Positions 9,940-42,362 of a DNA stretch of 64,000 bases are shown here, one piece after another. Position numbers and translations under genes: made by a program. The DNA comes from Anaerolinea sp. (GTDB lineage Bacteria; Chloroflexota; Anaerolineae; Anaerolineales; Anaerolineaceae). Numbering within the stretch: position 1 is the first letter of the stretch; each line of letters opens with the position of its first letter. Location of the stretch: positions 62,001-126,000 of the forward strand of contig DYEC01000009.1 of NCBI GenBank assembly GCA_020725865.1, read 5' to 3'. The notes beneath the pieces were generated by a model. The model did no database searches. It saw only the letters and a program-made list of their open reading frames with translations, and was not told the origin of the DNA.

Positions 9940-10262
9940 TCAAAACGCTACTGATCACGGTTGCAGTCGAAGCCGTTGTTGACTTGCTCTTCTGCCGGAT
10001 CAAAAGCAAACCCGTTATCAGCATTTTGATTACCGGCTTATGGGCAAATCTCTGGACACAGATGGGGCTTTGGCTATTACTGAGCTTTTTGCCCGGTTCT
10101 TACCTCCCCATCTTAATCAGCGCAGAGGTGTTGATTTGGTTCATTGAAGGGCTGTGTTTTATAGCTGTTTCCCGCAACCGATTAAGAATCCGCGAAGCCA
10201 TGTTATTGAGTCTGCTACGCAATCTGATCAGTTTCGGAATTGGAGCGATTTTACCCATTTAA
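9936..10262 (+). CDS. Small integral membrane protein
   Basis: A 108-residue hydrophobic protein starting at a GTG that overlaps the stop of the previous gene (GTGA). It has about three membrane helices: residues 1-20, 25-60 split by a short loop, and 65-105, with a basic loop SRNRLRIREA before the last. I see no catalytic motif. The coupling suggests it acts with the membrane-anchored protein encoded upstream. Function unknown. Confidence 0.7.
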   Translation: MIKTLLITVAVEAVVDLLFCRIKSKPVISILITGLWANLWTQMGLWLLLSFLPGSYLPILISAEVLIWFIEGLCFIAVSRNRLRIREAMLLSLLRNLISFGIGAILPI

Positions 10263-18279: not shown

Positions 18280-19047
18280 ATGTATGTCATTGCGCTATCT
18301 CATGGTAAGGGAGGGGTCGCCAAGACCACAACAGTCATTTCTCTTGGCACGGCGCTGACCGAGCACATGAAACGGGTGTTATTAATCGACCTCGACCCAC
18401 AGGCAGGAATGTCTCCACTACTTGGACTGGGAATGCCTGATCCACAATGGTCTATCGCCCAGGTGTTTTACGATTCGGCTTCAATTGGACGGGTTATTCG
18501 ACACACTGATGTGCTTGGTTTGGACATTGTTCCTTCTAGTCATGAGTTGAGCATGGCAGAACAATACCTGCCACTCCATCGCAACTATCAGTACCAGCTT
18601 CGCCGCATCTTACGAGAAGTGGAGCCGATTTACGATTTCGTCTTGCTCGACTGTCCCCCATTCCTCGGTGCAGTAACGCTAAATGCGATCGTGGCAGCTC
18701 ATATGTTGATCATCCCCACTCTGCCGGAAATGCTCTCTATCGCCGGAATGCAGCACATGCGGGAATGGGTCAATCACGCAAAAATTGATAACAATCCCTA
18801 TCTAATTTATCGTATTTTGATTACAATGTACGACAAAAGAAACCGTTCTCATATTGAGATCACGGAAAAACTCCGCCAAAGGTTGGGAGAGGAACTTTTC
18901 GAAACCGTTATTGGTGTAGATAACAAGGTGCGAGAGAGTCAAATTTTAGGCAAGCCGGTCCTGGTCCATGCAAAAAAATCCAGGGCGTCCTTGCAATATC
19001 GTGCGCTGGCGCAGGAGGTATTGAATTATGTCGAAAGAAAACCTTGA
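18280..19047 (+). CDS. ParA/Soj-like P-loop ATPase in EPS operon
   Basis: A 255-residue deviant-Walker ATPase. KGGVAKTTT near residues 10-18 is the ParA/MinD Walker A with its signature lysine, VLLIDLDPQAG is A' and FVLLDCPPFLG is Walker B. No ParB partner or parS cluster is visible, so chromosome partitioning is unlikely. It overlaps the Wzz/kinase gene by 20 bases. In this context it may position or regulate the polysaccharide assembly complex, or spatially organise the kinase encoded next. That role is inference. Confidence 0.85.
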   Translation: MYVIALSHGKGGVAKTTTVISLGTALTEHMKRVLLIDLDPQAGMSPLLGLGMPDPQWSIAQVFYDSASIGRVIRHTDVLGLDIVPSSHELSMAEQYLPLHRNYQYQLRRILREVEPIYDFVLLDCPPFLGAVTLNAIVAAHMLIIPTLPEMLSIAGMQHMREWVNHAKIDNNPYLIYRILITMYDKRNRSHIEITEKLRQRLGEELFETVIGVDNKVRESQILGKPVLVHAKKSRASLQYRALAQEVLNYVERKP

Positions 19048-20887
19048 TGAACATATTGATTATTTAGTTGACCGCCTATCTTCCTTTTCGGAAAGGGAAA
19101 AAGGGGCACCGGTGAAGGGTCAGACACCTATTGCACGCGGTTGGTCTTGGGAAACCGATAAAAACGGAGTATATCTTAAATGCTCCGATGAGGTAGAAGA
19201 ATGCCTTAACCTTCCACCTCACGCTTTCATCGGACAGCCATTGCTGGCGTTTAAACTGGCACCCAGAAGCACTGCAGAACTTCGTGATGTGTTTGCCGAG
19301 GGTATGGCGCGTAGAATACTGGTGCAGTTTCAAAATGCGGCGGGGGCTTGGTGCTCGGTATATATGAATATCAACCCGCGTCTGGATGAAAACGGCAAGC
19401 TCACCGGCTGGTATGGTTTCAACCAAATCGTGGCTCAAGAATCCGAACCGTTTGCTACAAGTTCTGAATCTCAGAAAACAGCACCTGCTCCTGTGCCAGT
19501 TAAAGCCTCAAGCGAAGTGCCAACCTCTCCCCCTCTCGACCGGGAAACCACCGGGCAGGAAAGCATGGAACTGGTTGATTACCTGATGGTAATCAGCCGC
19601 CGGAAATGGGTCATCTTAACAACCTTGTTATTTGCCCTGCTCATCGTTGTAATTTATATCCTCAATACACCCACTCTGTACACCGCCAAAACGGTTGTCC
19701 GCGTAACGAACCCTCGCTCCGGCAGTGCGGAATTTGTTGAATACAATATCGAACTGGGTGAACGAATCAAGGGAACATACGTTGAACTGGCAAATAGCAA
19801 TAGTGTAAGACAGGAATTGAGCAAGTACGTAAATCGCACTATCCCGGCCGCTGGAAGCTCGGGCTATCCGTCGATTAAGGCAACGGCGCTTGTAAATACT
19901 GAGCTTTTTGAGATCAGTGTAGAAGATCCAGACCCGGCCCTGGCACAGTTTGTCGCCAATAAGGTCGCAGAAATTCTCATCGAACAGGGCAAAAGTATAT
20001 TAAGCGACCAGGCGCTTCTGGTAAATGTTTACATTGCCGAGCCTGCCTCTCTCCCGGTCAAGCCTTCCAGTCCCAGCCCCTATCTGATACTGGTAATCGG
20101 GTTGGTGGTCGGCGCCTTAGGCGGTCTGGGGCTTGCATTCTTGTTTGAAGGATTAGACACCCGCCTATACACAGACAAACAAATTGAGCTACACACTGGC
20201 TTTCAGGTCATTGGCAACATCCCAGAAGAAGATCAACCAACTCCCGATCAGCTCTTCAAGCGCACAATTCATGCCGAGGCTTTTCGCCGCCTGCGTACCA
20301 ACATTTTCGCTCCTGCTCACAACAAAAACCTCAAAAGCCTGTTAGTGACCAGTGCTGTTCCAAAGGATGGCAAGTCAGCGATTGTCGCCAATCTGGCAGT
20401 CAGCATTTCACAAACCGGGCGCTCTGTGTTGATTATTGACGCCAATCTGCGCGCTCCAGCCATCCATAAATATTTTGCAGTGTCGAACGAAATGGGCTTA
20501 ACAAATGTTCTCTCTAACGAGATTGACTTTTCATCCGCGGTCCAGGCGACCAGTTATCCAAAGATCTGGGTCATCACCAGTGGCGTGGCCATTCAAAACC
20601 CCGTAGAAGTGCTCGATTCAGAACGAATGGCTGAAATTATCTCCCAAGCGGCAAAACAATACGATGTAGTACTGGTTGACTCTCCGGCATCCATTTCAGT
20701 AACTGATCCAACTGTGCTGACACCAATGGTGGATGGTGTGCTGTTAGTCGTCCGGCATAATTGGGTACGACGGGAAGCGTTACAAGCAACTATCCGACAC
20801 CTGACCGCAGTAAACGGAAACATTATCGGTATTGTATCCAACCGTACCGACCTTGGAGCGCGTACGCGCTTGTTAAGACTTCGTTAA
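19028..20887 (+). CDS. PAS-Wzz-BY-kinase fusion (polysaccharide co-polymerase/tyrosine kinase)
   Basis: A 619-residue protein with three parts. Residues 35-137 look like a PAS domain (WSWETDKNGVYLKCSDEVEE ... LTGWYGFNQIV). Residues 180-375 are a Wzz chain-length domain with membrane helices near 194-212 and 351-373. Residues 395-619 form a CpsD/BY-kinase ATPase. Walker A is PKDGKSAI, A' is IIDANLRAP (the usual DxD is DxN) and Walker B is VVLVDSPAS. No C-terminal Tyr cluster is present; the tail ends RTRLLRLR. It probably controls chain length and export at the membrane. The N-terminal PAS domain is unusual for Wzz-kinase proteins. Confidence 0.88.
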   Translation: MSKENLDEHIDYLVDRLSSFSEREKGAPVKGQTPIARGWSWETDKNGVYLKCSDEVEECLNLPPHAFIGQPLLAFKLAPRSTAELRDVFAEGMARRILVQFQNAAGAWCSVYMNINPRLDENGKLTGWYGFNQIVAQESEPFATSSESQKTAPAPVPVKASSEVPTSPPLDRETTGQESMELVDYLMVISRRKWVILTTLLFALLIVVIYILNTPTLYTAKTVVRVTNPRSGSAEFVEYNIELGERIKGTYVELANSNSVRQELSKYVNRTIPAAGSSGYPSIKATALVNTELFEISVEDPDPALAQFVANKVAEILIEQGKSILSDQALLVNVYIAEPASLPVKPSSPSPYLILVIGLVVGALGGLGLAFLFEGLDTRLYTDKQIELHTGFQVIGNIPEEDQPTPDQLFKRTIHAEAFRRLRTNIFAPAHNKNLKSLLVTSAVPKDGKSAIVANLAVSISQTGRSVLIIDANLRAPAIHKYFAVSNEMGLTNVLSNEIDFSSAVQATSYPKIWVITSGVAIQNPVEVLDSERMAEIISQAAKQYDVVLVDSPASISVTDPTVLTPMVDGVLLVVRHNWVRREALQATIRHLTAVNGNIIGIVSNRTDLGARTRLLRLR

Positions 20888-20934
20888 TCACGGTTTATTG
20901 AGATGTTCTTTTAGTTAGCGAGGAGAATGATTAT

Positions 20935-22428
20935 ATGCAGGCGCCATGGCAACAGTCCAGGCTATCCGATAAAACCACTCAGCTTATTATTGCTGGTATC
21001 TTAGGGGCAATCCTGGGGGTGATGTTCCTGTTCCTGCCGCCGCTGACGGTTGCCCTGCTGACTGGTGTGGCTTTTCTGGCTGTATTGGCAATCAAAAAGC
21101 CCGAATTAGCACTGCTGGGTTTACTGGTCATCATATCAAGTCTGTTTCCAGACACAGTTTTTCCTCGCATCAATTTGATCGCGTTCAACCTCTACATCAC
21201 AGATATCCTGATCGTCATTTTCTTGTTTTTGATCATTCTCCGCTGGCTGGTGGATCGAAACTATCCATTGATACGCACCCCGCTGGATATACCCTTCCTG
21301 GCATTTTGTGTTTGGGCAGCCGTAACAGCACTATACGGGTATTGGATGAATGATGTCCCCCGTTATCGCATGATCCCAGAGCTGCGAATGGCGGAGTATT
21401 ACATTTCGTTTTTCCTGTTCACCAATCTATTACGTACCCCGGGCAGTCTGCGCTTCCTATTGCGCTGGTTTTTCATTCTGGCAACTCTGGTTGGCGTGGT
21501 GATGATTGTTCAGTATTTCCTGGGCTACACTTCCCCAATTTTAGCTGGACGCGTTGAGGTATTGGTCACATCGGAACAGGGGCGTATTTATCAAGAAGTC
21601 ACCCGTATCACTGACACTTCTGGTGAGGGTTTAATCACAATGGCATTCATGCTCAAATCGGTCATGCTATTCATTGACCGATTACGCATTCGCAAGATGG
21701 CTGATTTGATCCAGTGGGGCATCATTGGCACCGGTTTTTTGATGACTTTCAACCGTACACACTGGCTGATGGCGTTTTTTGTAATTGGCATGACAGCTCT
21801 TCTGGTCGGGAAACAGGAGCGGCAAAAACTGCTCTACTGGTCCCTGGCAGTTATCTTACTGGGCGTATTCTTGATCAGTGCAATACTGATCCTTTTGCCC
21901 GAATCCGGACCGGCGACTTTCCTGCGCGCTTTCGGGGGACGCCTCTTTTCGGTAACCGCCAGTGATTTATACCGCGACCCTAACACCAGTACGTTGCTCT
22001 GGCGCAACTTTGAGTATGAATACGGCCTCCCCCAGGTCTGGTCTCACCCGATTATGGGGCTTGGGCTGGGCGCTAATTATCGTCCTCTATTAATGAATGT
22101 AGATGGCTATTGGTCTGATGGACGACATTTTGTTCACAACAGCCATCTCTGGGTAGCAATGAAAACCGGTTTGGTAGGCTTTTTCTTCTATCTCTGGTTC
22201 CTTCTGGGATTTGTATGGCACGGATTGCGGTCGTGGCGGTCCATTGCAGATGTATCTCTGCGGGGTATGGTATTGGGAAGTGCTTTATCGATTCTGGCAA
22301 TTGTCATTGGCGCGAATGCCCATGCAATTACCATGTCCCTGTACTGGATCCCAGTATTGACATTTGTCATTGGAACCAGCGAAGTGATCATCCTGCGTCA
22401 TTCCAACCACGCGAGAGGTCAAACATGA
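20935..22428 (+). CDS. Wzy-like O-antigen ligase/polymerase family membrane protein
   Basis: A 497-residue protein with about 12 membrane helices and a long extracytoplasmic loop near residues 325-385 containing WSHPIMGLGLGANYR and HFVHNSHLW. These fit the Wzy_C/O-antigen ligase family (PF04932), whose GxGxG and HNxxL motifs lie in that loop. It would polymerise lipid-linked repeat units outside the membrane. GAGGAG lies 11 bases before the ATG. The stop overlaps the next start (ATGA). Ligase activity on another acceptor is the alternative. Confidence 0.85.
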   Translation: MQAPWQQSRLSDKTTQLIIAGILGAILGVMFLFLPPLTVALLTGVAFLAVLAIKKPELALLGLLVIISSLFPDTVFPRINLIAFNLYITDILIVIFLFLIILRWLVDRNYPLIRTPLDIPFLAFCVWAAVTALYGYWMNDVPRYRMIPELRMAEYYISFFLFTNLLRTPGSLRFLLRWFFILATLVGVVMIVQYFLGYTSPILAGRVEVLVTSEQGRIYQEVTRITDTSGEGLITMAFMLKSVMLFIDRLRIRKMADLIQWGIIGTGFLMTFNRTHWLMAFFVIGMTALLVGKQERQKLLYWSLAVILLGVFLISAILILLPESGPATFLRAFGGRLFSVTASDLYRDPNTSTLLWRNFEYEYGLPQVWSHPIMGLGLGANYRPLLMNVDGYWSDGRHFVHNSHLWVAMKTGLVGFFFYLWFLLGFVWHGLRSWRSIADVSLRGMVLGSALSILAIVIGANAHAITMSLYWIPVLTFVIGTSEVIILRHSNHARGQT

Positions 22429-28924: not shown

Positions 28925-29964
28925 CCGAAATGCCTGTAAAGAATTTCACCCGCTGCCCGGCAGACAATTGCCGGAGAGTGCCGTACCACACTATTCATAA
29001 GACGCATCAGCTTTCCGGGTGCTGTGTAAGATAATTTGCCGCCAATACTGCAGTATGCCAGCGGTTGCTCTTGATAACCCCAGCGATTTTTATAGTCGCG
29101 CAAACCTTCATCCTGCAATCCGCTTCTCCCCACATCCACAATTGTATACCCATTTTCGCAAGCCCAGCGAATTGCTTCCCATTCCAAAAGATAACCCGGG
29201 CGCAGTTCTCGCAAGTCTTCCTCGCTTTGCTTGAGAGAGGCTCCATATTTTAACGTCAACGTTTTTTGCCAGTGCAAAGCAACAATACCTGAAAGACAGA
29301 TTTCTTGATGATAAGCCAGCAAAATAAATCCCAATCCTTGTGCTAGCAAATTTTTCTGCAACCCGGCGAAATACCTCCATGGCTGTACCGGGACACCGTG
29401 CTGCTGTCGCGTCTGTACCATCAGCTTGTAGAAGCGGCGCATATCCGCATCAGATGAACCGATTTCAACCCGAACGCCCCGATTGATTGAGGAACGGACG
29501 TACTTGCGAATCTTTTTCGGTAATCCTTCAAAAAGCACGTCTGGATCAGCACTGGCATCCAGTTGGCGTGTATGCCATACATGTTGCACTTCACAATAAA
29601 TCTCTTCTCGCGGCGGGTATGACCAGCGTAATTCCATTCGAGGTATTTCTTTTTGCGCCGAAAGAGTCACCAGTCCAGTGGTTAATTCTTCCAGTGCCGC
29701 TTCATTTTCATACAAAGGGGCACAGTGATCAGAAAAAGGCACAGAAACCCAACGCCTGCCCGTTAAAGGGCTGTTCACTTCCATTATTGGTAAGCCAGCT
29801 CTGATTTGTCCTTTTTTGTCTAATAGAGCCAGAAAAAACCCGTGGTATCCGTACGCCTCTTCCAGATTTTTGATCCAGCGAGGATGATGAAAAATATGCG
29901 CCTCTCGCCTAGAATCAATAAAATCTATCCAGCGCGGGTCGTCAAGTGTCAAAATTTGAAACAT
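28921..29964 (-). CDS. FemAB/GNAT-like (Acetyltransf_6) acyltransferase
   Basis: A 347-residue protein with two GNAT-like halves. Typical features are HIFHHPRWIKNLEEAYGYHG at the N-terminus, PKKIRKYVRSSINRGVRV near residue 150, and the C-terminal block LLEWEAIRWACENGYTIVDV followed by GRSGLQDEGLRDYKNRWG. These match the FemAB-related acyltransferases found in exopolysaccharide loci. It is only weakly similar to the three FemABX paralogues upstream. It probably transfers an acyl or aminoacyl group to a sugar or lipid intermediate. Overlapping start and stop with the deacetylase (ATGA) suggest a coupled pair, such as deacetylation followed by re-acylation; that is inference. Confidence 0.78.
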   Translation of the reverse strand: MFQILTLDDPRWIDFIDSRREAHIFHHPRWIKNLEEAYGYHGFFLALLDKKGQIRAGLPIMEVNSPLTGRRWVSVPFSDHCAPLYENEAALEELTTGLVTLSAQKEIPRMELRWSYPPREEIYCEVQHVWHTRQLDASADPDVLFEGLPKKIRKYVRSSINRGVRVEIGSSDADMRRFYKLMVQTRQQHGVPVQPWRYFAGLQKNLLAQGLGFILLAYHQEICLSGIVALHWQKTLTLKYGASLKQSEEDLRELRPGYLLEWEAIRWACENGYTIVDVGRSGLQDEGLRDYKNRWGYQEQPLAYCSIGGKLSYTAPGKLMRLMNSVVRHSPAIVCRAAGEILYRHFG

Positions 29965-30007
29965 GTCAATGTCCTCTACTTGATTGTAAACCAGCCGGTT
30001 CCATCTG

Positions 30008-31162
30008 TTACTCGGCCGCTGAAACGCCTCTTAGGCTCTTAATCGCCCGCTTCACCAGAGCAACTTCCTTAAAACGCGGGAAAAACTTCCAATATAACCA
30101 GCTTACACCCGGCAAGAAAACTCTTTCATACGTTGGCGGGTAAAATACCAGCTGACTGCTGAAGCTAAGCTTGTAACTGTTGTAGGTATGTAAATATTCG
30201 TCCGGAATCGGGTGACCATGTCGCAACGCCTCAGCAACTGGGGTTTCAATCCCCATCAAGTTAAACCACCTGAAACCATGCAGTTTTGCCCACTGAATCG
30301 CATGCCAGTGGATTTCATCGTTTGGATACAGATCGGGATGTTCTCCGCTCCAGCCAATTTTATAAGCTGTCATCGTATCCCGAAAGAGAAGATTGATCTG
30401 TGCGCTAAGCGGTTGCCCTTGATACTCGGCAATAAACAACTTAATATGTTGCGATGGTGCAAAAAGCTGCCAGAGCTTTTCAAAAAATTCCAGTTGATAC
30501 GGCACAAAACCAAGCCTTTTGGCGCTATGTGCATGAAGCTGATGAAAGAGGACAACATCTCGCTCGTCTCCCTCCCGGACACAAACGCCGCGCGCTTCGC
30601 CACGGTGAATCAGTTTACGGCGATTCTTAGAAATGTGATGAAAAATTTCGTCGAGTTCAGGTGATAAATCAAGCACTACCTCCGCCCGAGTGTCAATGTC
30701 GCCAAGTAAAGCTTCGCGAAAGCCATAAATCCGCGCAGAGTGAATGAGAGAATCGTCATCCGCTGGCAAGTCAAGGGCAAGATAATATATGCGAGATCGC
30801 CAACAGAGGCGCACTAACGTCTGCCACAGCACGCTATCAAGCTCTGAATTGCTCGTTTCGATTAGCGGACCACGCCAGATAGCCCCAATCCTACCCCCAA
30901 AAGGGAGCATCTTAGTGAGAATCTGAACACCAGCCACAATTCGATCTGTATCCTTAATGAGTATCCGTACTGGTTGCCAACCCTGCACTGACTTGACCTG
31001 CGCCCACAAGCTGGTTTGAGAATACTGACCATAGGATGCGTGCTCAACAAATTGATCCCACTCAGGATCGAGCGTTGATCTTGAGATAATAATCTGAAAC
31101 TTCTTTGCGTCCTGCACTGTTTTCACCTGTTTCCATCTGACTTGTTTGTATATAATGTCCAT
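30008..31162 (-). CDS. FemABX-family aminoacyl/acyltransferase, paralogue 1
   Basis: A 384-residue protein with AGAAGG 6 bases before the ATG. The N-terminal GNAT half begins STLDPEWDQFVEHASYGQYS and QTSLWAQVKSVQGWQPVRIL. The C-terminal half has HISKNRRKLIHRGEARGVCV, LFHQLHAHSAKRLGF, MTAYKIGWSGEHPDLYPND and HAIQWAKLHGFRWFNLMGIE. This layout matches FemX/FemA lipid II aminoacyltransferases, which use aminoacyl-tRNA. It lacks the long coiled-coil insert of staphylococcal FemA. Its position inside an EPS operon suggests an exopolysaccharide or lipid-linked substrate rather than peptidoglycan. Confidence 0.85.
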   Translation of the reverse strand: MDIIYKQVRWKQVKTVQDAKKFQIIISRSTLDPEWDQFVEHASYGQYSQTSLWAQVKSVQGWQPVRILIKDTDRIVAGVQILTKMLPFGGRIGAIWRGPLIETSNSELDSVLWQTLVRLCWRSRIYYLALDLPADDDSLIHSARIYGFREALLGDIDTRAEVVLDLSPELDEIFHHISKNRRKLIHRGEARGVCVREGDERDVVLFHQLHAHSAKRLGFVPYQLEFFEKLWQLFAPSQHIKLFIAEYQGQPLSAQINLLFRDTMTAYKIGWSGEHPDLYPNDEIHWHAIQWAKLHGFRWFNLMGIETPVAEALRHGHPIPDEYLHTYNSYKLSFSSQLVFYPPTYERVFLPGVSWLYWKFFPRFKEVALVKRAIKSLRGVSAAE

Positions 31163-31240
31163 TCAGTGCCTTCTGGGTAAAATTGTCCCAGTTGGAGTTT
31201 CTTAACCTTAGATATTTTGAATGCGTAAACGAAATCCACT

Positions 31241-32329
31241 CTATCTTCTTCGATAAAGTCTGTAGCCAAATGTCAGGACAGGATTAACAAAGCGAAATAC
31301 CCTCCGATACAACCAGCCAAGCAGTGGATTGCAGAAATACTCATATGTCTCCGGATACATCACAACCTGATCGGTGTAATGCAGTTTATACTCGCTGTAA
31401 GTATTGAGAAGATGGTTGGGGAGTTCCTGTCCACTCAAAACCGCCTGTGCCGCTCTAGTATCAATACCACCAAAATCGAACCAGCGGTACCCCTGAGCTT
31501 TTGCCCAGAGGATAGACGACCAGATCACCCCTTCGTTCGGACGCAAGTTGCTGTGCTTACCAGACCAGCCAATCCGGTAGCCGTATGCAGTCTCTTTATA
31601 AGCCAGAACAAGACTAGCTGCGAGCGGTTCTCCCTCATACTCAGCTATCAGCAACGCCAACTGGTTACGAGGCTCAAAGACGTCCCATAAAAACTCAAAA
31701 AACTTCTTTGATTGCACCTCAAACCGATTTCGCTCCCCAGTCTTTTGATGCAGTTGAGCAAAAAATTCCAGGTCTGCTTTCGTACCTTGCCGATATGAAA
31801 GACCGGTTTTCTGTGAACGGCGAATTGCATTACGCTTTTTATGTTTAATCTGAGTGGAGAGGATAGTTTCAGGGTCTGCACTCATATCTATCAAGATTGT
31901 AGCGGGTTTCTCAATATCGCCTTGTGAGCTCTTTTCAAAGCCCATTTCCTTGAGCAATGGGACAAGCTCCTCACCATGATCCGGAGGTTGAAGGGCAAAA
32001 TATTGGACACCGCGTGCACACAGTTGTTTTTGAATTTCCTGAAGACAGCGCCTATATAATTCTCGATCACTCACCCGGAAAATCGGGCCCTTTGAAATAT
32101 ATCCTATTGAGCCCAAAAGCGGTACCGGTCGGACAAAGACCTGTGTTCCAGCAATAGTCTCATCAGCCTTCTTTAGCAAAATGCGAAATACCCGCCAGCC
32201 CTGAACCAGCTTTACCCGTGCCCACAAGCTTGTTTGTGTATAATGCCCATCCGGAACATCCCAGACAAGACCATCCCACTCGGGATCTTCCAAGCCCTCA
32301 AAAATCTGAAATAACACGTCAAAGCTCAC
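31241..32329 (-). CDS. FemABX-family aminoacyl/acyltransferase, paralogue 2
   Basis: A 362-residue protein starting at GTG with AAAGGAT upstream. It has the same domain order as its neighbours: LEDPEWDGLVWDVPDGHYT with QTSLWARVKLVQGWRVFRIL, QIKHKKRNAIRRSQKTGLSY, LAYKETAYGYRIGWSGKHSN and SSILWAKAQGYRWFDFGGID. It is the most divergent of the three, especially in the N-terminal 170 residues. It is 78 bases from paralogue 1 and 118 bases from paralogue 3, looser spacing than elsewhere in the operon. Confidence 0.85.
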   Translation of the reverse strand: MSFDVLFQIFEGLEDPEWDGLVWDVPDGHYTQTSLWARVKLVQGWRVFRILLKKADETIAGTQVFVRPVPLLGSIGYISKGPIFRVSDRELYRRCLQEIQKQLCARGVQYFALQPPDHGEELVPLLKEMGFEKSSQGDIEKPATILIDMSADPETILSTQIKHKKRNAIRRSQKTGLSYRQGTKADLEFFAQLHQKTGERNRFEVQSKKFFEFLWDVFEPRNQLALLIAEYEGEPLAASLVLAYKETAYGYRIGWSGKHSNLRPNEGVIWSSILWAKAQGYRWFDFGGIDTRAAQAVLSGQELPNHLLNTYSEYKLHYTDQVVMYPETYEYFCNPLLGWLYRRVFRFVNPVLTFGYRLYRRR

Positions 32330-32447
32330 GAGATTTATCCTTTGTGATATGACTTCTACAAAAAGTCACAGAAACTCTCTTTATGTAAAATAATGATCGT
32401 CATATTTGTCCAATTTTAGTCTTATAAAATCTACCTTGTGGTCCTAA

Positions 32448-33590
32448 TCAGCCAGCAGTTCTTTTGAGTAAGTAGCGAAGAACAAGTTTGTGAATAGGGA
32501 TAATTTTCTTTAAGTTGGCAAAGACTACTCGATATAGATATTTCTCGCCGGGCAAAAAAACTCTCTCATATGAGGGCGGATAAAAGACAGGCTGACCGCC
32601 AAAACCAAGCTTATAGTCACTATAAGTATATTTATGGTCATGAGGAATGGACTGCCCCCTTCGCAAAGCCTCAGCCACCGGTATTTCAACACCCAAAAAG
32701 TTATACCAACGGTAACCCTGTTCTTTTGCCCAACATATTGTGTACCAGTCAAGTTTGTCATTTGGATACAGGTTGGCATGTTGTCTATTCCAGCCAATTT
32801 TATAAGCACTTACCATATCTTTGAACAAAATAACAATCTGCGCGCTAACTGGTCGTCCCTCGTACTCTGCAATAAACAGCTTGACCCGCTGACCTGGTGC
32901 GAAAATATGCCACAACTTCTGATAGAACTTTCTGGAATAAGGAGTAAAACCTTGCCGTTTGGCACTGATCACGTGTAAGTCATAGAAAACATCAACTTCC
33001 TGGGCTGTGCCCTCGCGAATCACTATACCACGGTTATCGGCGCGCCTAAGAACTTTGCGCCGCTTAGAAGACATTCGGGCGAGGATTTGTTCCAAGCCGG
33101 AAGATAGGTCCACAACAATATCGCACTGGGAATCAATATCGCCCAGTAGATTCTTTACAAATCCAAAATCTCCTACTACCTGAGTAAGATTTGCATCTTC
33201 GGAGGGTAAACTAAGTGCCAAAAAACGAACGCCAAGACGTTTACAAAGATCCGATATTATTCCTAAAATCATCCCGCATAACGCCGGCTGATGGAAATCA
33301 TATAGGGGTCCTCGCCAGATTACGCCAACTTTACCGGCAAAGGGCACCAACTTGGTTAGAATCTGCGCTCCAGCCACAATATGGCCTGTTTCTTTGATTA
33401 TTATTCGAACCGGCTGCCAACCCTGCACCGCCCTAACCTGTGCCCACAGACTCGTTTGGGTAAATTGACCATGCGGATGGTTTTCAACAAATGCATCCCA
33501 TGCAGGATCATCCATAAGAGTGGATTCAATAACCTCAAAACTCAATGGGCTATCCGAAAAACCTTTTATCTCGTAATTGTAGCTTCTCAT
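32448..33590 (-). CDS. FemABX-family aminoacyl/acyltransferase, paralogue 3
   Basis: A 380-residue protein, closest to paralogue 1. Shared blocks include QTSLWAQVRAVQGWQPVRII, KETGHIVAGAQILTKLVPFA, MSSKRRKVLRRADNRGIVIR, SAYKIGWNRQHANLYPNDKL and CWAKEQGYRWYNFLGVEIPV. Paralogues 1 and 3 probably arose by recent tandem duplication and paralogue 2 by an older one. The start overlaps the preceding glycosyltransferase stop (ATGA), so the FemABX block is coupled to sugar assembly. Confidence 0.85.
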   Translation of the reverse strand: MRSYNYEIKGFSDSPLSFEVIESTLMDDPAWDAFVENHPHGQFTQTSLWAQVRAVQGWQPVRIIIKETGHIVAGAQILTKLVPFAGKVGVIWRGPLYDFHQPALCGMILGIISDLCKRLGVRFLALSLPSEDANLTQVVGDFGFVKNLLGDIDSQCDIVVDLSSGLEQILARMSSKRRKVLRRADNRGIVIREGTAQEVDVFYDLHVISAKRQGFTPYSRKFYQKLWHIFAPGQRVKLFIAEYEGRPVSAQIVILFKDMVSAYKIGWNRQHANLYPNDKLDWYTICWAKEQGYRWYNFLGVEIPVAEALRRGQSIPHDHKYTYSDYKLGFGGQPVFYPPSYERVFLPGEKYLYRVVFANLKKIIPIHKLVLRYLLKRTAG

Positions 33591-34575: not shown

Positions 34576-35763
34576 TCATAAAGTGCGGAGTTCCAGACCC
34601 TTTTCAAGGGCAGTCTTCAATCGCAACGCCGAATTACGCCAGGTCCAGTTTTGAGCAGCGGCGGCTGCCTGCTGCCCCATCTTCGGAAGGCTTTCCATGC
34701 TTTCCCAGATTTTACGCAACGCGGTCAAGAAACCCTGCGGATCAGCCTGCTCCGCCCAAAAAACAAACGGCTCATTGCCAACCACATCCGTATGACAAAC
34801 GATGCGTGTGGCGAGAATCGGGAGCCCAGCAGCCATATACTCAAACAGCTTGATCGGACTGCTGACACGAAATTTTTCCTCATCCGGGAAAGGCAATACG
34901 CCAAGATGTCCCTGAGCCAGCACAGACGGCACCTCATGATGTGGAACAGGAGCTTTGACAACCACGCTTCCATCGGAGTCGCGGGCAATTTTCTCCAAAT
35001 AGCTCTGAGCCTCGCCTGAACCAACCATCGTAAAAATGAATTTCAAACCTGCCCGGTTAGCCTGAATGACCGCCTGACACAAGCTGTGAATATTCCGCTC
35101 CAGGCTGAACGACCCAACATAAAGCAAGTGAATTGCCTCCTCCCGGCTGGGCCATTGCCGGGCGGCAATCGCCGGAGCAAACTGGTCAAGGTGAACACCT
35201 GAGGTCCACACCCCCAAAAGTTTCCGCTCGGGAATCTTGAGGCTTTCAGCCATACGGGTAGTGATTGCCGTTTGCCCATCCGTCCAGTAATTGGCAATTG
35301 CATTCATCAGTTCTAGAAACCGGCGGCGCAGTCTGCCGCGCAGTGTCTCGTTCTTAACATCTGGCATGTGCAGCGTGCGGGTATCCATGACATAAACTGG
35401 ACGCTGTTTACCAATCAGGTTTCGCCAAAATCGCAATGGAAGCATGTAAGGCAACGAGTCCTGCGTAAAAAAGACCACATCTGGGGCTGGTCGGACACGC
35501 CACATGTGGAGCATGGCTTTGAGATGAAACATTACTTGACCAAGCAAATAAATTGCTGGTGCGCTGATGCAATAATTCTCAACCCCTTCTATCGTTTGTA
35601 AACCATCCGCCCCAATCGAAACCAGCGTAACTTTCCAGCCCATTTTGCGCAGTTCGCGCGTGATCTCCAGCCGCGAGGCACTGGAAAGTTTCTGAGTGAA
35701 ATCATCATACACAATCCAGTAAATGTGCGGCGTTTTCAAGGGATTTTTTTTAGATTCGTTCAT
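34576..35763 (-). CDS. GT4-type glycosyltransferase
   Basis: A 395-residue GT-B enzyme. The ATG at 35763 has AAGGG 8 bases upstream; an in-frame GTG lies at 35772. It starts with PHIYWIVYDDFTQKLSSASR and contains PDVVFFTQDS, VWTSGVHLDQFAPAI, HLLYVGSFSLERNIHSL and SSPIKLFEYMAAGLPILATR (the E-x-M-A-A-G-L-P signature). It overlaps the end of the flippase-GT fusion gene by 14 bases. It should act on the lipid-linked repeat at the inner face of the membrane. Confidence 0.88.
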   Translation of the reverse strand: MNESKKNPLKTPHIYWIVYDDFTQKLSSASRLEITRELRKMGWKVTLVSIGADGLQTIEGVENYCISAPAIYLLGQVMFHLKAMLHMWRVRPAPDVVFFTQDSLPYMLPLRFWRNLIGKQRPVYVMDTRTLHMPDVKNETLRGRLRRRFLELMNAIANYWTDGQTAITTRMAESLKIPERKLLGVWTSGVHLDQFAPAIAARQWPSREEAIHLLYVGSFSLERNIHSLCQAVIQANRAGLKFIFTMVGSGEAQSYLEKIARDSDGSVVVKAPVPHHEVPSVLAQGHLGVLPFPDEEKFRVSSPIKLFEYMAAGLPILATRIVCHTDVVGNEPFVFWAEQADPQGFLTALRKIWESMESLPKMGQQAAAAAQNWTWRNSALRLKTALEKGLELRTL

Positions 35764-38551
35764 ACAGTCCACCCTTTTGATGAGATTTGTTCCCTTCAGG
35801 AAGATTCTCCAGCTCCAAATAGAGTCTCATAAGCTGGTCAGCAATGATATCCCAATCATACACATTGCGCACCAGCTCAAGCGCGTTGGTAACAATTTGT
35901 CTACGTAAGGCATCATCTTGTAACAGCCGCAAAATAGCCTCTGCAAACGTTTCGGCGGTGTCTGCAATTAACAGATGATGACCATCTATGACGTCAAGCC
36001 CCTCGCAACCAATGCTTGTGGAGACAACCGGTCTGCCAAGTGCCATAGCCTCCAATATTTTCAGCCGAGTACCACCGCCTGCGCGCAGTGGAATCACGCA
36101 AACATGCGCCTTTTGGTAGTACGGCACAACATCTTCAACCAGTCCGGTAACATGAATTTGATCACTCTGCCATTTCAGTAATTCTAATCCGGGTCGGTTG
36201 CCAACAATCCAGGTTTGCAAATCACTTACCCTGCGTTGCAGGATTGGAAGAATTTCTCGGCAAAGATAAACGGCCGCGTCAGCATTAGGTGCATAACCCA
36301 TGCTTCCAACAAAAATAATAGCAGGCGGACCGGACGGCTCAGCAAGCGGCTGAAGCAGGTGAGTGTCGGTGCCATTGGGGATCGTAACCACCCTGAGATC
36401 GGGATTCAATGAACAGAGAACTTCCCGATCACGCTCCGAAACCGTTACACAACAGCCAAAACGCTCCGCAAAGAACGGCTCCCAGCGACGCATTGCCCAG
36501 CTATCAAACCACAGACGAAGTTTGCGGGGCAGTCGGTGTTCAATTTTTGCCATGCGTGCCTGTTTCTCAAAAACAATATCATGAAAGGTCAGGATACTTC
36601 GTGGATGCAAAGCCTGCGGGATTTGATTGAGATAAAGCCCCATGTAAGAATCTTCAATTTGAATAATATCAAAGCCAATCTGCCGGCAGAGTCTTCGAAT
36701 AGCATTTGCCATATCTTCGGAGTAATAAAAACGCAAATCAGGCGGTATACCTGAAGCCAGATAAGTAACAAACTCTAAGGGTCTATCCAGCACTCCATAA
36801 ACAAGGGGCGGTTTGACCAGAATAACATCCTGACAAAAGGTTTTCAAGTGCTCAATATGTTCTGCACGAATATTCTGGTCGTCAAAAGTCAACAACCAGA
36901 CGTTATGCAAACGCCCAATGCGCTTGAGCAGATTATAGTTGCGGATCGGATTGCCCGCTGTTGGAGGATATGGAAAATAGGGCGCAATAAACAAAACATT
37001 CTTCCAGTAATGACCTTGGGATGAATTATTGTTTGCACGCGAGTCAAACACCGGTCTATTATCCATTGATAAAGAAGTTTTACCACGCTGCAATATGGCA
37101 CGCATGCGCGCCCAAAGATTACCGGTTTCACGCAGAGCAATTTCAATATCACTACGAGTGAAAACAGAAAAGATATAGCTGATGACAAAATACAGCACAA
37201 TAACCGCTATATACAGTGGGTAGCCATACGAATCCAGCAGTCGCATCACTGCCACACAAGCACCCAAAATCAACAGCGGCTTAACATAGTCCAGTACCCT
37301 CACAACGATATATCGCCTGTACAAGAACAAAACATTGACGGGATTGACAGCCATGGTACTGATCAACCCTGCCAGCGCCGCACCAATTGCTCCCACTTTG
37401 GGAATAAGCAAAAAATACGCTGCAAAGCTAATCGCTGTTCGCAACACATTAATGATCGGGGGTTTATCCGAAGCACCTGATCCCACCAACGAATAGCCCA
37501 ACATCGAATCGAGCATGGTGAAAATCAAACCAACCATCATCACCCAGAAAATAGGAACACTGGGCAGATAACGCTCAGAAAACAGCGTGCGATAAATTAC
37601 AGTCCCAAAGCCAAAAGCAATCAGCGCTCCAAAAGCACCCAGAAAGGTTACAAGCCTGTTCGTATGATTCAGCAGTGAAGAAACGCGTTTATATTCGCCG
37701 CTCGCGTATAGCTTAGATTGGTAAGGATAATAAACATCCAATAGAGACTCAAACATCATGTTGACACTCTCGGGAATTTTGCGGGCATATTCATAAAATG
37801 CAATATCTGCTGGCCCCAAGAGAATCCCGATGATTACCGTATCGGCACGGGAAAAAAGAAAATTGAGGATACGGTTAAGAAACAGCGGAAACGAGAATTT
37901 CAGCAACGCTTTTAGTTTTTGATAACTGACCTGTAAGGCTGGACGAAGCCCAAGCCCCCAAACCCCTAACAATAACGCTAAAAGCCTGGAAAGCACCCTC
38001 GCCCAGACAACGCCCATGATGCCCTGTCCAAGCCAGACAACCAGCACAATGGTAATAATGATGCTCGAAACACTGCTGGTCAGCTCAACCCCGCTGACGA
38101 GCTTGAACCTGAAAAGCCCGCTGGCAACAGAACCATAACCTGCCAGCAATCCCTCAATGAACAACAACAATGGCAGATAGATCAGAAAACGACTATCCAG
38201 CGCTGACCCCAAGGCTTGAAAAATCAAGTTGCGAAAAACCAGTATCAGCGCACTGGAAACAATCAACATCGCGGCAACAAACATGAGAAAAGAATTGATC
38301 AGAGTTTGTCTTTCCTTTTCATCCTCACTGCCGGCGATAAACTTGATGGCAGCAGTAGTGGTACCCAGATTGCTCAGGCTCACTGCAAAACCAATGATCA
38401 CCTGCAAAAGCACAAAGCTACCGTATTCCGCCTCGGGTATCCAGCGCGCGTAAATGATCATGCTGGCAAATCCGAGAAAAACCGTTACAAATTTAGCCAG
38501 GCTGATAAAAAATGTACCGGAAATGAAGCGGGAGAGTAGTGAGTCGGACAT
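35750..38551 (-). CDS. Wzx-type flippase fused to a GT4 glycosyltransferase
   Basis: One uninterrupted 933-residue reading frame. Residues 1-480 are a polysaccharide flippase (PF01943/MATE-like fold) with 12-14 membrane helices, beginning LLSRFISGTFFISLAKFVTV and including RADTVIIGILLGPADIAFYE. A hydrophilic linker (about 485-520) leads to a GT-B glycosyltransferase: VLFIAPYFPYPPTAGNPIRN, TIPNGTDTHLLQPL, AIIFVGSMGYAPNADAA, IPLRAGGGTRLKILEAMALG. The normal arrangement is two separate proteins. No internal start with a ribosome-binding site is visible at the junction. The fusion would tie addition of a late sugar to flipping of the finished unit. The ATG at 38551 is chosen over a TTG at 38557. 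Confidence 0.87.
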   Translation of the reverse strand: MSDSLLSRFISGTFFISLAKFVTVFLGFASMIIYARWIPEAEYGSFVLLQVIIGFAVSLSNLGTTTAAIKFIAGSEDEKERQTLINSFLMFVAAMLIVSSALILVFRNLIFQALGSALDSRFLIYLPLLLFIEGLLAGYGSVASGLFRFKLVSGVELTSSVSSIIITIVLVVWLGQGIMGVVWARVLSRLLALLLGVWGLGLRPALQVSYQKLKALLKFSFPLFLNRILNFLFSRADTVIIGILLGPADIAFYEYARKIPESVNMMFESLLDVYYPYQSKLYASGEYKRVSSLLNHTNRLVTFLGAFGALIAFGFGTVIYRTLFSERYLPSVPIFWVMMVGLIFTMLDSMLGYSLVGSGASDKPPIINVLRTAISFAAYFLLIPKVGAIGAALAGLISTMAVNPVNVLFLYRRYIVVRVLDYVKPLLILGACVAVMRLLDSYGYPLYIAVIVLYFVISYIFSVFTRSDIEIALRETGNLWARMRAILQRGKTSLSMDNRPVFDSRANNNSSQGHYWKNVLFIAPYFPYPPTAGNPIRNYNLLKRIGRLHNVWLLTFDDQNIRAEHIEHLKTFCQDVILVKPPLVYGVLDRPLEFVTYLASGIPPDLRFYYSEDMANAIRRLCRQIGFDIIQIEDSYMGLYLNQIPQALHPRSILTFHDIVFEKQARMAKIEHRLPRKLRLWFDSWAMRRWEPFFAERFGCCVTVSERDREVLCSLNPDLRVVTIPNGTDTHLLQPLAEPSGPPAIIFVGSMGYAPNADAAVYLCREILPILQRRVSDLQTWIVGNRPGLELLKWQSDQIHVTGLVEDVVPYYQKAHVCVIPLRAGGGTRLKILEAMALGRPVVSTSIGCEGLDVIDGHHLLIADTAETFAEAILRLLQDDALRRQIVTNALELVRNVYDWDIIADQLMRLYLELENLPEGNKSHQKGGLYERI

Positions 38552-38560
38552 AGGCAAATT

Positions 38561-39211
38561 TCAGCCCGCCCCACGTTTGGAAATTACCGCTGGGATCGTC
38601 AGCAGTAGAATTTTAATATCCAGCCAGATGGAATAATTCTGAATGTAACGGATATCCAGGCGCAACTGGTCATCAAAAGAGACCTGGCTGCGTGCAGTAA
38701 CTTGCCAGAGCCCGGTCATTCCGGGCAGGAATTTCAACCGTTCGCTATGCCACAGATCAAACTGTTCCACCTCATAAATCGGAAGCGGCCGCGGACCAAC
38801 CAGACTCATCTCTCCTCTGAGGACATTGAACAACTGTGGCAACTCATCTATACTCAGACGGCGAATGAATTTCCCCACACGTGTAACCCGCGGATCATCT
38901 TTGAGCTTTACCCCAGACTGTACATCGAGCTGTCCTGAAACATAAGCCGCAATATGCTGTCGGTGGAGTGTTTCATCTACATTGTGGTACATTGAGCGAA
39001 ACTTGTACATATCAAAGAGAGTGCCATTCAAGCCAACCCGCTTTTGCTTGAAGAAAATTGGCCCCGGTGAGTCCAGTCGAATCGCCAGCGCAACGATGCC
39101 CATCAAGGGCAGGATAACCACCATACCCAAGACTGTTCCCACACAATCCATCGTCCTTTTCAAGATGAATTGTGTCAGTGTGTAAGGTGTATCACGAAAC
39201 CGCAAGCTCAT
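38561..39211 (-). CDS. Initiating sugar-phosphate transferase (PglC/WcaJ-type, short form)
   Basis: A 216-residue Bac_transf (PF02397) monotopic enzyme. It has one N-terminal re-entrant helix ([20 protein letters not shown]), then [10 protein letters not shown] with the conserved Asp/Glu region, [38 protein letters not shown] and [14 protein letters not shown]. It transfers a sugar-1-phosphate to undecaprenyl phosphate, the first committed step of the repeat unit. It lacks the N-terminal membrane domain of WcaJ. It precedes the flippase fusion by 9 bases and follows the lectin-like lipoprotein gene by 16. Confidence 0.92.
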
Positions 39212-39227: not shown

Positions 39228-40154
39228 TCAATTCACAATGCGCTTCTTGCTGATGGCTATATCGTCTATATAAATTGTACATGGATTGGGCATAATTAAA
39301 TCCGAGTAATTATTGACACTCCAGTCTACTGACAAATCACTCAAGACAGTTTGAGCTTTGTCAATATTGAACACTTCATCGCCATCCTGCCAGATAATCA
39401 CCTGACCAGTTGTGTCAAATGCCTGCCGGTAATATCCTTCAAGATGAAACCACTGATCAAGTGGAATACTACGCGTCTGATAGTGATTGAAATTCTCCCC
39501 GTTTGGCAATCTCTGCACCATATATAACCCCAACCCGCTACCTTGTGTCTGAGCACCAACCGAAAAAATACGCTGGCTATTATCGGAGTTGCCATCTTCG
39601 GTAGATTTCCACTGCCAGAGATTCCAGAAGCCGATCGGACGAACATTAGAGGGAATATAGTACCAGGCTGAATAATAGTAAGCTTCTTCCGGTAATTCTT
39701 TCCAGAAGAACAAATAAGCCGCGTGTGCACCGGTGGGTGAATACTGGCTGGTGTCAATCGTTAATGCAACAGCATAATTTCCCGAATGTGCCGGCGAACT
39801 GACCAACCCCCAAGTGCCGTTTCCTTGGCGGACAAAATCCCCAAAATCATTTAACTGCAGTTCGCTCAAATCACCGGTTTCAAAACCGGTTGACCAGTAA
39901 AAGCCATCTTGTATCGACAATACGGTAACAGAGGGTTCGACAGGAATCTTGGTAGACATGGTTGCCACCGCCACACTGGTTGGCGTACGAGTCTCTAGAT
40001 AATTCGGTGTTGCCTTAACTGTCACTATAGGCGAGGGGGATGATAAGACCGGTGTGTGTTCGATAGATTGACATGCTGTCACAACAAATACAAGAAGAAA
40101 CACCGTTAAGAATGCCCCGCAGCGAGACCACTCTGTCAAGAACTTCTCTTTCAT
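39228..40154 (-). CDS. Lipoprotein with lectin/polysaccharide-lyase-like jelly-roll domain
   Basis: A 308-residue lipoprotein (VFVVTAC lipobox near residue 28). A Thr/Ser linker leads to a beta-sandwich domain from about residue 85: FYWSTGFETGDLSEL, SGNYAVALTIDTSQ, AAYLFFWKELPEEAYYYSAW, YMVQRLPNGENFNHYQTR, DQWFHLEGYYRQAFDTTGQV. It resembles heparin-lyase-I/LamG folds, which bind or cleave polysaccharides. As first gene of the minus-strand EPS operon it may bind or trim the product outside the cell. Lyase activity is not shown by any catalytic pair I can identify. It is a paralogue of the gene at 40427. Confidence 0.78.
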   Translation of the reverse strand: MKEKFLTEWSRCGAFLTVFLLVFVVTACQSIEHTPVLSSPSPIVTVKATPNYLETRTPTSVAVATMSTKIPVEPSVTVLSIQDGFYWSTGFETGDLSELQLNDFGDFVRQGNGTWGLVSSPAHSGNYAVALTIDTSQYSPTGAHAAYLFFWKELPEEAYYYSAWYYIPSNVRPIGFWNLWQWKSTEDGNSDNSQRIFSVGAQTQGSGLGLYMVQRLPNGENFNHYQTRSIPLDQWFHLEGYYRQAFDTTGQVIIWQDGDEVFNIDKAQTVLSDLSVDWSVNNYSDLIMPNPCTIYIDDIAISKKRIVN

Positions 40155-40426
40155 AGGAAGTTATCCTGTGTCTAAAGAGAAAGCCGGTCGTAACCCACCT
40201 CTCCGTTAGCAAAAAACCCAAACATTACATTAATGTCACCCTGAAATAAAATTCAAGTGACACGATTTATACCATTCTACACCAATTTAGCCCTAATTCG
40301 ATTAGCCCAAAATGAAGTGTTGCAATTTTGTAATGCAAACGCACAATATTAAGAAAAAAACAAACCAGTTGAGAGAACCTTTCTGCCCCTCAACTGGCAT
40401 AGTATTCAGCAACGACTCACGAAACG
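40155..40426 (-). promoter_or_regulatory. Leader of minus-strand EPS operon with shared upstream elements
   Basis: This 272-base gap holds the terminator of the upstream gene and, on the minus strand, TTGCAAC (40325-40319), TTGGGCTAA (40310-40302) and TTGGTGTAG (40285-40277), with an additional TTAGGGCTAA between the last two. The three words occur in the same order upstream of the plus-strand EPS operon (15882-15929), with similar spacing. This suggests common control of both arms. Confidence 0.5.
40351..40397 (-). terminator. Rho-independent terminator of the lectin-like gene at 40427
   Basis: A 9-bp stem (40365-40373 CCAGTTGAG with 40389-40397 CTCAACTGG) and a 15-base loop. Read on the minus strand it is followed by TTTGTTTTTTTCTT. 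Confidence 0.9.
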
Positions 40427-41968
40427 TCAATGTCCTATTCTGCTGGAGCTAACTGCAATATCATCCACATAAATCGTGCAGGGGCTGGGCGAAATTTGAT
40501 TGGAGTAGTTGTTAACACTCCAGTCCACCGTCAGGTCGCTAAGCACAGTCTGTGCGCTCGTGATGTTGAAAACCTCAACTCCATCCTGCCAGACAATGAC
40601 CTGGCCGGTTGTGTCAAATGCCTGTCGGTAATATCCTTCGATATGAAACCACTGGTCAAGCGGGATATTGCGCGTCGAATTGTGGTTAACCTTACTTCCG
40701 TCTGGGAGCCGCTGCACCATGTACAACCCCAAACCGCCATTTAACGGCCGAGCGCCGACAGAAAAGATTCGCTGGCTGTTGTCGGAATTGCCATCATACG
40801 TTGATTTCCACTGCCAGAGGTTCCACCACTCAGCAGGTAAAGTGCCAGATGGAATGTAATACCAAGCTGAATAATAGTAAGCCTCCCCAGGCAATTCCTT
40901 CCAGAAGAACATATAAGCAGCGTGAGCACCGGTCGGAGAGGACTGGCTGGTATCGATGGTCAATGCAGCAGCATACTTACCCGAGTGCGCTGGCGAATTA
41001 ATCAGTTTGTACGTGCCATTGCCCTGATTGACAAAACCACCATAGCTGTTCGCCTCAAGCTCGCTGAGGTTACCGGTTTCAAAACCAGTGGACCAATAGA
41101 AACTGCCACCTGCAGGTGCAGAAGCTGGACTTGTTGCCGTAGGAGGCACAGGAGTTGGTGAAGGAGGTAATGGTGTGGCGGTTGCCGGTAACTGTGTTGG
41201 TGTGGGTGTTAATGGTGTTGCAGTTGCCGGTGGCTGTGTGGGCTGCGGAAGTTTAGGAGCTTCAGTTGAGGGAGCAGGAGTGCTCGTGGGTTGAGTTGAG
41301 GGAATAAACATGGTTGGCTGAAGCGTAGCTGCAATTGGTAACGCGGCTGTCGCGGTCGGTGCAACCTGCGTTGGCTTGGGCCTCTTTTTCCATGGAAACC
41401 AGCGAGAAAGGGCAGAAAACAAGCCGATGCTGCCATCGACTGAAGATAACGTCTTTGCATCCGTAGCCTGCGGCGTCAGGGTGGTTGGCATAGCAGTTGG
41501 TTGTAATGTAGGAGACGACTGTATCACAACGATTGCCTGTTGTGCAGGCAATGAACTCTCAGAAGCGACAATGACTGCTGGGGTAGAAGTAGGCTCGAGC
41601 GCCAGCACGTAGGGTGTCCCATTCGGCTGTGCCGTTGCCCCGCCCTGTAATATTACGGTCGTGTCCCAAGGATACTGCGAAGTCGGCGTGAAAAATGCTG
41701 TTGGTTGTGTGAAGTTTTGAGGCTGATTGTTCGAATCAATCACTTGGAGAGAAGTTTGGAAGAAACCATCTTCAGATCGAGATGCATCCTTGTTCATCCC
41801 CGCTTGGTCAGACAAATATCCCTGTTCCGGGTTACTAACCAATAATGTGGAGCTATATTCAGGTAAGTCAGCGGAACTGGCTGACACCGGTAAATTGCAA
41901 GCCAATCCCACCAGGACAAGAAATGCTGCACAAACGTAAAGGTACTTAATCATGGGTAATGCTTTCAA
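40427..41968 (-). CDS. Lipoprotein with long Pro/Thr linker and jelly-roll domain (paralogue)
   Basis: A 513-residue protein. The TTG at 41968 is chosen because AGGAGG lies 9 bases upstream; an in-frame ATG at 41953 is the alternative. The signal ends LVLVGLAC (lipobox). About 260 residues of low-complexity linker rich in Pro, Thr and Ala follow (for example PTPTQLPATATPLPPSPTPV), long enough to cross a thick wall. The C-terminal 220 residues are near-identical in pattern to the domain encoded at 39228 (STGFETGNLSEL, FFWKELPGEAYYYSAWYYIP, WFHIEGYYRQAFDTTGQVIV). It probably displays a polysaccharide-binding or -cleaving domain at the surface. It ends at its own terminator. Confidence 0.8.
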   Translation of the reverse strand: MKALPMIKYLYVCAAFLVLVGLACNLPVSASSADLPEYSSTLLVSNPEQGYLSDQAGMNKDASRSEDGFFQTSLQVIDSNNQPQNFTQPTAFFTPTSQYPWDTTVILQGGATAQPNGTPYVLALEPTSTPAVIVASESSLPAQQAIVVIQSSPTLQPTAMPTTLTPQATDAKTLSSVDGSIGLFSALSRWFPWKKRPKPTQVAPTATAALPIAATLQPTMFIPSTQPTSTPAPSTEAPKLPQPTQPPATATPLTPTPTQLPATATPLPPSPTPVPPTATSPASAPAGGSFYWSTGFETGNLSELEANSYGGFVNQGNGTYKLINSPAHSGKYAAALTIDTSQSSPTGAHAAYMFFWKELPGEAYYYSAWYYIPSGTLPAEWWNLWQWKSTYDGNSDNSQRIFSVGARPLNGGLGLYMVQRLPDGSKVNHNSTRNIPLDQWFHIEGYYRQAFDTTGQVIVWQDGVEVFNITSAQTVLSDLTVDWSVNNYSNQISPSPCTIYVDDIAVSSSRIGH

Positions 41969-42362
41969 AAGACAGAACCTCCTCTGAGTTTTTACTGACA
42001 CCGGACTGACATCCCTGTTCCAATCCAACCTGATTATAGAAACAGCCTGCCCTGGCGACGTTAACGGATTCGTTAGATGACACGTTGCAAACTGGCGCAG
42101 CCTTACAAATTTGTAAGGTTGCAAAACGGCAATGTTTATGCAACTGTTACTTTGAATTGGCAATGTTTTGAAGGCTATACGAATAATAAAAACTTTTGCC
42201 CCCTTTTGAAGCAGATGATGTCCTGGAGAAAACAACACATTAACCTTGTACAGCCCTGATTCACCCACTAACAATAGCCCCAAGACATTTGTCTCAGGAA
42301 CTGGATCGTAAATATTGAACCACGGTTAAGAGAATGGCTATAATCATTCCATGGAGGCTGGC
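41969..42362. promoter_or_regulatory. 394-base divergent regulatory region with palindrome and promoter
   Basis: No gene is seen. A perfect 18-bp palindrome (CCTTACAAA and its complement) lies at 42101-42118, flanked on both sides by TTGCAA words at about 42085-42090 and 42120-42125. A well-formed plus-strand promoter, TTGAAC at 42315-42320 and TATAAT at 42339-42344 (18-base spacer), lies just ahead of the hydrolase gene. An apparent open frame extending the minus-strand gene across this region lacks a ribosome-binding site and precedes the signal peptide, so I treat it as non-coding. Confidence 0.6.

Follow-up and report, generated by a model that had tools for sequence, protein, structure and literature searches.

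A stop-free reading frame joining a Wzx-type flippase and an stp1-like GT4 glycosyltransferase in Anaerolinea sp.

Does a single gene of Anaerolinea sp. encode both a Wzx-type flippase and a glycosyltransferase (GT), and is it a true fusion of two neighbouring genes? The question is raised by a 64,000-nucleotide stretch of contig DYEC01000009.1 (assembly GCA_020725865.1), referred to below as the window, in which the original prediction had placed a flippase and a complete GT4 enzyme in one polypeptide. On the minus strand, positions 38551-35750 form a single stop-free frame of 933 codons. Pfam and NCBIfam matches and an AlphaFold model confirmed that this one frame (35750..38551) carries both a Wzx-type flippase domain and an stp1-like GT4 domain. 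The gene starts at TTG 38557 or, more likely, at ATG 38551, and its stop codon lies at 35752-35750. The product computed from ATG 38551 has a mass of 105,010 Da (105.0 kDa), in agreement with the 105 kDa predicted. Residue numbers given here are counted from TTG 38557 (935 residues); the protein has 933 aa if ATG 38551 is used.

The flippase half comprises residues 3-497 (37067..38551, minus strand), as delimited by Pfam, by the ends of related proteins and by Foldseek. Polysacc_synt (PF01943) matched residues 13-283 with 94.6 bits (cut-off 28.2) and Polysacc_synt_3 (PF13440) matched residues 36-335 with 94.5 bits (cut-off 23), in both cases over most of the model. Hydropathy analysis revealed 12 membrane segments, every one before residue 470; of the 12-14 helices predicted earlier, the lower figure was found and the upper was not reached. 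With 12 segments, the C-terminus would be cytosolic if the N-terminus is cytosolic. When the predicted model of this half was compared by Foldseek, WzxE (TMt 0.84) and MurJ (TMt 0.77) were matched, suggesting that the three have the MOP fold in common. The matched WzxE and MurJ chains have no GT domain, whereas the window protein carries a GT4.

The GT4 half comprises residues 519-935 (35750..37003, minus strand) and was assigned by Pfam, NCBIfam, alignment and Foldseek. Glyco_transf_4 (PF13439) matched residues 542-733 and Glyco_trans_1_4 (PF13692) residues 745-881, both over curated cut-offs, and the GT4 domain matches together reach residues 542-892. NCBIfam TIGR03087 (stp1) aligned to residues 521-909 over model positions 1-390 of 397. 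The score was 239.2 bits, below the curated equivalog cut-off of 316.65; judged by sequence score, the GT half is a relative of TIGR03087 and not a member. Foldseek comparison of its predicted model pointed to the GT-B fold of GT4 enzymes, including PglA, BshA and PimA. A sequence search of PDB with the fusion returned five sequences, all matching the GT half, and PimA was among them. PglA, PimA and BshA resemble the GT half in fold (PimA in sequence also) but are stand-alone enzymes, with chains of 343-399 residues. GT4 enzymes use cytosolic nucleotide sugars as donors, and the active parts of both halves of the window protein probably face or reach the cytosol.

The AlphaFold2 model of the fusion, built from 26 aligned sequences, had a mean predicted local distance difference test (pLDDT) value of 89 and a predicted template-modelling (pTM) score of 0.57. 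Values of pLDDT below 50 were confined to residues 1-6, 494-515 and 928-935. This pattern, together with the pTM score, suggests two folded units with a disordered joint, whose mutual position in the model is not reliable. The hydrophilic linker of the original prediction is thus present at residues 498-519 (37001..37066, minus strand), where it was delimited by pLDDT, comparison of GT starts and codon score, and it is predicted to be disordered.

Relatives were collected by a search of 101 genomes and by an alignment scan of the genome contig collection, which gave 11 loci. Up to 8 candidates per genome were scored in the 101-genome search, up to 2 in a search of 396 genomes of the class, up to 2 in a search of 400 genomes of the phylum, and up to 3 in a flippase search of 396 genomes; the genome sets of these searches overlap, and their counts are not summed. 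Fifteen related flippases were obtained, from 10 of the 11 alignment-scan loci and from 5 further genomes of the 396. None of the 15 has a C-terminal GT, in keeping with the view that Wzx and GT are normally separate; two of them (in G438 and G440) were judged by frame length alone, 499 and 488 aa. Outside this count stand eight weaker flippase rows of the 101-genome search (E 3e-18 to 2e-11), with frames of 458-547 aa. The more distant pairs of G246 and G209 are not counted either; there, too, the flippase is separate from the GT. In two Zod_Metabat metagenome-assembled genomes (L071:3326-5470 and L072:3428-5482), flippases of the window's subfamily have an N-terminal TPR domain.

In Ch9 (Anaerolineae) and in SMBSF63, SURF_68 and NAT124 (Anaerolineaceae), the same two families are encoded by adjacent open reading frames (ORFs) in the window's order and on the same strand. 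The two ORFs are separated by a stop and 10-24 bases, when the GT start is taken as the Met 10 residues before a P-x-P motif. A downstream GT4 neighbour is common to all four. Ch9, SMBSF63 and NAT124 retain the window's order of priming gene, flippase, GT and GT4; SURF_68 retains flippase, GT and GT4, and the stretch read there has no priming match. These clusters therefore differ from the window in having wzx and the stp1-like GT4 gene as separate genes rather than as a single frame. In Zod_Metabat.387, one other GT gene sits between flippase and GT. Beside the split pair of SMBSF63, a GT4 gene lies in two overlapping frames (L035:4087-5276), which may represent a frameshift or a pseudogene.

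Comparison with the split pairs shows what has changed at the junction. By alignment, the relatives' flippases end at positions equivalent to window residues about 494-497. The GT begins with the Met 10 residues ahead of the P-x-P motif in 7/7 adjacent pairs compared (Ch9, SMBSF63, SURF_68, NAT124, G246, G209 and G305). In the window, the flippase has no stop, as predicted, and the codon at the relatives' GT start position, codon 519, is AAG; evidently both the flippase stop and the usual GT start have been lost. The linker consists of 22 codons, MDNRPVFDSRANNNSSQGHYWK, beginning with ATG 498 (37066), and these codons have no homologues among the aligned sequences. The reading that we consider probable is a real, lineage-specific fusion, in which an adjacent flippase gene and stp1-like GT4 gene lost the intervening stop and came to encode one inner-membrane flippase-GT4 protein. 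The former intergenic gap would thereby have become a flexible 22-residue linker. A real fusion is favoured because the flippase stop and the customary GT start are lost together, because 26 window genes, together 36.2 kb, are unbroken frames (with the caveat that they were picked as long frames), and because neither half has a close second copy elsewhere in the genome (26 contigs, 3.12 Mb), where three further matches reached E <= 1e-5, with identities of 30%, 26% and 25%. The stop-free frame, the completeness of the two halves and the recurrence of the neighbouring pair count in its favour as well, as do the priming, Wzz-like and Wzy_C genes of the window and the precedent of MprF. Judged from the 26 whole-frame genes, the sequencing of the window looks clean.

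Several observations weigh against a real fusion. The fusion is a singleton in relation to the 15 related flippases, and in the genome collection used its genus is represented by the genome of the window alone. A pTM of 0.57 gives no defined docking between the modelled flippase and GT halves. In the gene tree, the flippase half falls together with Ch10 and Leptolinea (support 99/98), and in the stretches read from these nearest kin there is no such GT beside the flippase. The linker had a codon-usage score of 0.44; scores this low or lower occurred in 6.8% of 1641 in-frame windows, and scores this high or higher in 18% of 1071 out-of-frame open windows. Its codon usage is thus weak and typical of neither coding nor non-coding sequence, which would suit either a former gap turned into a linker or a young N-terminal extension of the GT. 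A tandem TAA-TAG lies in another frame where the flippase would naturally end, several codons at the junction are a single substitution away from a stop, and a single-base change at the junction could have produced the frame as a sequence artefact.

This last possibility amounts to an alternative in which a one-base error in the draft consensus at the junction (a substitution, a loss or an insertion), or a strain-level defect, conceals two truly separate, slightly overlapping genes. The GT frame is +1 relative to the flippase frame in 3/4 close relatives (by our arithmetic). In view of this and of the TAA-TAG in the other frame, one base gained or lost in the last flippase codons would bring those stops into play and convert the window frame into two overlapping genes, and a one-base length change would restore the relatives' +1 arrangement. 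Such an error would also accord with the separation of flippase and GT in 15/15 related flippases and with the broken frames that occur in draft genomes of the group, as in the two-piece GT4 gene of SMBSF63. However, the 26 window genes (again, picked as whole frames) are whole, and two separate genes would require a GT start upstream of the usual site, which reads AAG in the window. A start at codon 498 would give 21 extra residues that are absent from the 7 pairs compared. We regard an artefact or strain-level defect as unlikely.

The same ATG bears on a further alternative, in which the frame is genuine and internal initiation at ATG 498 (or at GTG 503 or TTG 522) yields some or most of the GT as a separate protein; the fusion would then be a partial read-through product. 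This in-frame ATG lies exactly on the domain boundary, and the weak coding character of the linker would be consistent with internal initiation. The original prediction had seen no internal ribosome-binding site, and this is literally right: with one motif list, no Shine-Dalgarno 4-mer was found at ATG 498, GTG 503 or TTG 522. However, 16/27 window genes likewise start without such a 4-mer in an equal test (starts chosen by us, fused gene counted), so that its absence at codon 498 tells little and is no bar to initiation there. It also stands against this alternative that no stop precedes ATG 498, which makes coupling by termination impossible. We consider separate production of the GT quite unlikely.

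Whether the fusion recurs elsewhere was addressed by the searches described above. In the 101-genome search, the Ch9 pair was spanned as one row through one TGA. Among the rows listed for the 396 class genomes, three span both halves: that of the window is stop-free, and those of G246 and G209 each contain one TGA. Among the rows listed for the 400 phylum genomes, the window alone spans both halves. No second stop-free frame spanning both halves was thus found among the rows listed in the searches of 101, 396 and 400 genomes. A scan of the genome contig collection with the whole fusion gave 8 pattern matches, none confirmed as a relative, and a plasmid search with the fusion matched 35 records, in none of which a single locus covered 80% of the query. 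Four long frames were rejected as further fusions. A frame of 892 aa from its first start in G251 had Pfam matches to GT only (499-857), and a second GT gene, read in a different frame, overlaps its N-terminal half; this open frame appears to have arisen by chance. For frames of 812, 808 and 792 aa in G407, G115 and G124, the stop-to-stop frames of the GT in fetched DNA are 409, 420 and 420 codons. Further rows with 769-856 aa frames at GT matches in the class and phylum searches stand outside these checks. Among the papers looked at, which include PMC4039749 and PMC4443731, no title or abstract opening announces a flippase-GT fusion. The original prediction had proposed looking for this domain order in other genomes and had named homologues always split as one possible refutation. 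The order was absent from the related flippases and from other stop-free rows listed, and the relatives found are all split; the window frame itself still stands.

Gene trees were also used to ask about the age of the fusion. The GT half had no supported place, and paths to the nearest tree rows were long (about 1.6-1.9 changes per column). The trees thus do not show when the fusion arose, nor do they establish that its halves were inherited together, and the fusion can be called lineage-specific at most.

If the frame is translated as one inner-membrane protein containing both halves, the flippase half would carry an undecaprenyl-diphosphate-linked unit outward, and the cytosolic GT4 half would add one sugar to that unit on the cytosolic side. 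The tether would fix a 1:1 ratio and keep the GT beside the flippase, raising its local concentration, as in MprF. MprF also combines a lipid flippase and a cytosolic lipid-modifying enzyme in one polypeptide, and its catalytic domain is described as mobile in the portion of PMC8131360 drawn on here, which suggests that a tethered synthase domain can swing yet still serve the flippase. MprF differs in having a GNAT-type synthase in place of a GT4 and in acting on a phospholipid instead of a lipid-linked glycan. Its flippase is not known to be of the MOP type. No Pfam match to MprF domains was found in the fusion, and MprF serves here as a works-like analogy only. By that analogy, a GT tethered to a flippase is plausible. 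A stronger version, in which a Wzx with tethered GT4 finishes the unit at the flippase mouth and couples the last cytosolic sugar to translocation, as a polysaccharide counterpart of MprF, appears very doubtful.

The original prediction went further and suggested that the fusion checks the completeness of units before flipping. In such a quality gate, the GT would add the last sugar, and only then would the completed unit go to the flippase half of the same protein. This idea would fit the order of the domains and their cytosolic placement, and the flippase-GT neighbour pair is recurrent. However, nothing indicates that the GT of the fusion acts last or is required for flipping; the linker is predicted to be disordered, with no docked orientation in the model; and relatives have the equivalent cluster with the genes separate. 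Flippases are, moreover, described as gatekeepers without any fusion, as for TacF in the part of PMC13385700 cited here. The gating claim is therefore unsupported, and we regard it as most improbable.

The surroundings of the fused gene suggest the pathway in which it would act. Upstream lies a priming polyprenyl glycosylphosphotransferase gene (Bac_transf, 38561..39211, minus strand; PF02397 and TIGR03025 over cut-off). Downstream are two GT4 genes, the first of which (34576..35763, minus strand; PF13692) overlaps the end of the fused gene, then four FemAB/GNAT-like genes and another GT4; one downstream gene has a weak polysaccharide-deacetylase match below cut-off. The other strand carries a Wzz-like/AAA gene (19028-20887, plus strand; PF02706, PF13614), probably encoding a kinase-like chain-length regulator, a Wzy_C polymerase-or-ligase gene (20935-22428, plus strand; PF04932) and a BcsB-like gene. 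Genes matching PF04932, PF02706 and PF02397 are thus all present in the window, with the Wzz and Wzy_C genes on the opposite strand ~13 kb off. These two genes (19028..22428) are probably the rest of a Wzx/Wzy-type pathway, with the proviso that PF04932 does not separate polymerase from ligase. Judged by these family matches, the locus resembles one for a Wzx/Wzy-type exopolysaccharide, in which the fused gene would supply the flippase and the Wzy_C gene is ambiguous between polymerase and ligase.

Other features of the window were recorded. The Wzz-like gene at 19028-20887 combines PAS_4, Wzz and AAA_31 matches, so that a sensor domain is possible. The four FemAB/GNAT-like genes (28921-33590, minus strand) lie within the glycan cluster, and two to four such genes are also present there in SMBSF63 and Ch10. 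Two secreted-looking paralogues at 39228-42283 (minus strand) have, by eye, a common C-terminal domain, and the second has a long P/T-rich region. A histidine-kinase-like protein of 1377 aa with four to five GAF domains is encoded at 51964-56097 (minus strand). The first ~10 kb (1-10260) has few long ORFs; 10 ORFs scanned there had no Pfam match. No Rfam matches were found within the window.

A different flippase fusion was found to recur in the taxonomic order to which the window belongs. A PF13440 search of 151 relatives gave matches in 109, with at least 11 frames of 983-1454 aa besides the window, all from that order. Nine of those 11 long frames (L081-L089, from G087, G099, G089, G063, G076, G083, G070, G082 and G871) and two shorter ones (L090 and L091) were fetched. 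All nine long frames (9/9) have an N-terminal YfhO-like half resembling that of the G083 protein and a C-terminal MOP flippase in one frame. Relative to G083, the other eight showed 38-51% identity in the N-terminal half (partial values where the fetched DNA or frame begins later) and 45-66% in the flippase. L090 and L091 (664 and 643 aa) matched the flippase half only. When the N-terminal halves of four long frames were scanned, Pfam YfhO was over cut-off in two, below it in one and without a match in one. YfhO was proposed to be an extracellular GT-C enzyme, with biochemical proof lacking at that date, in the part of PMC5836110 cited here. Like the window protein, these frames join a putative glycosyltransferase to a MOP flippase; unlike the GT4 of the window, which is C-terminal, their putative GT is N-terminal, a membrane GT-C and proposed to act outside (same source). 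The window flippase is not among the matches of the YfhO-linked flippase. The YfhO-like fusion is thus recurrent, whereas the window fusion so far is not, and of the two the former argues more strongly that glycan transfer and flipping can be covalently coupled, with the GT-C role putative.

The novelty of the window fusion is modest. If its frame is true, it represents a covalent flippase-glycosyltransferase pair that arose from two neighbouring genes, and it would indicate a direct partnership between Wzx and a GT, which is otherwise hard to show.

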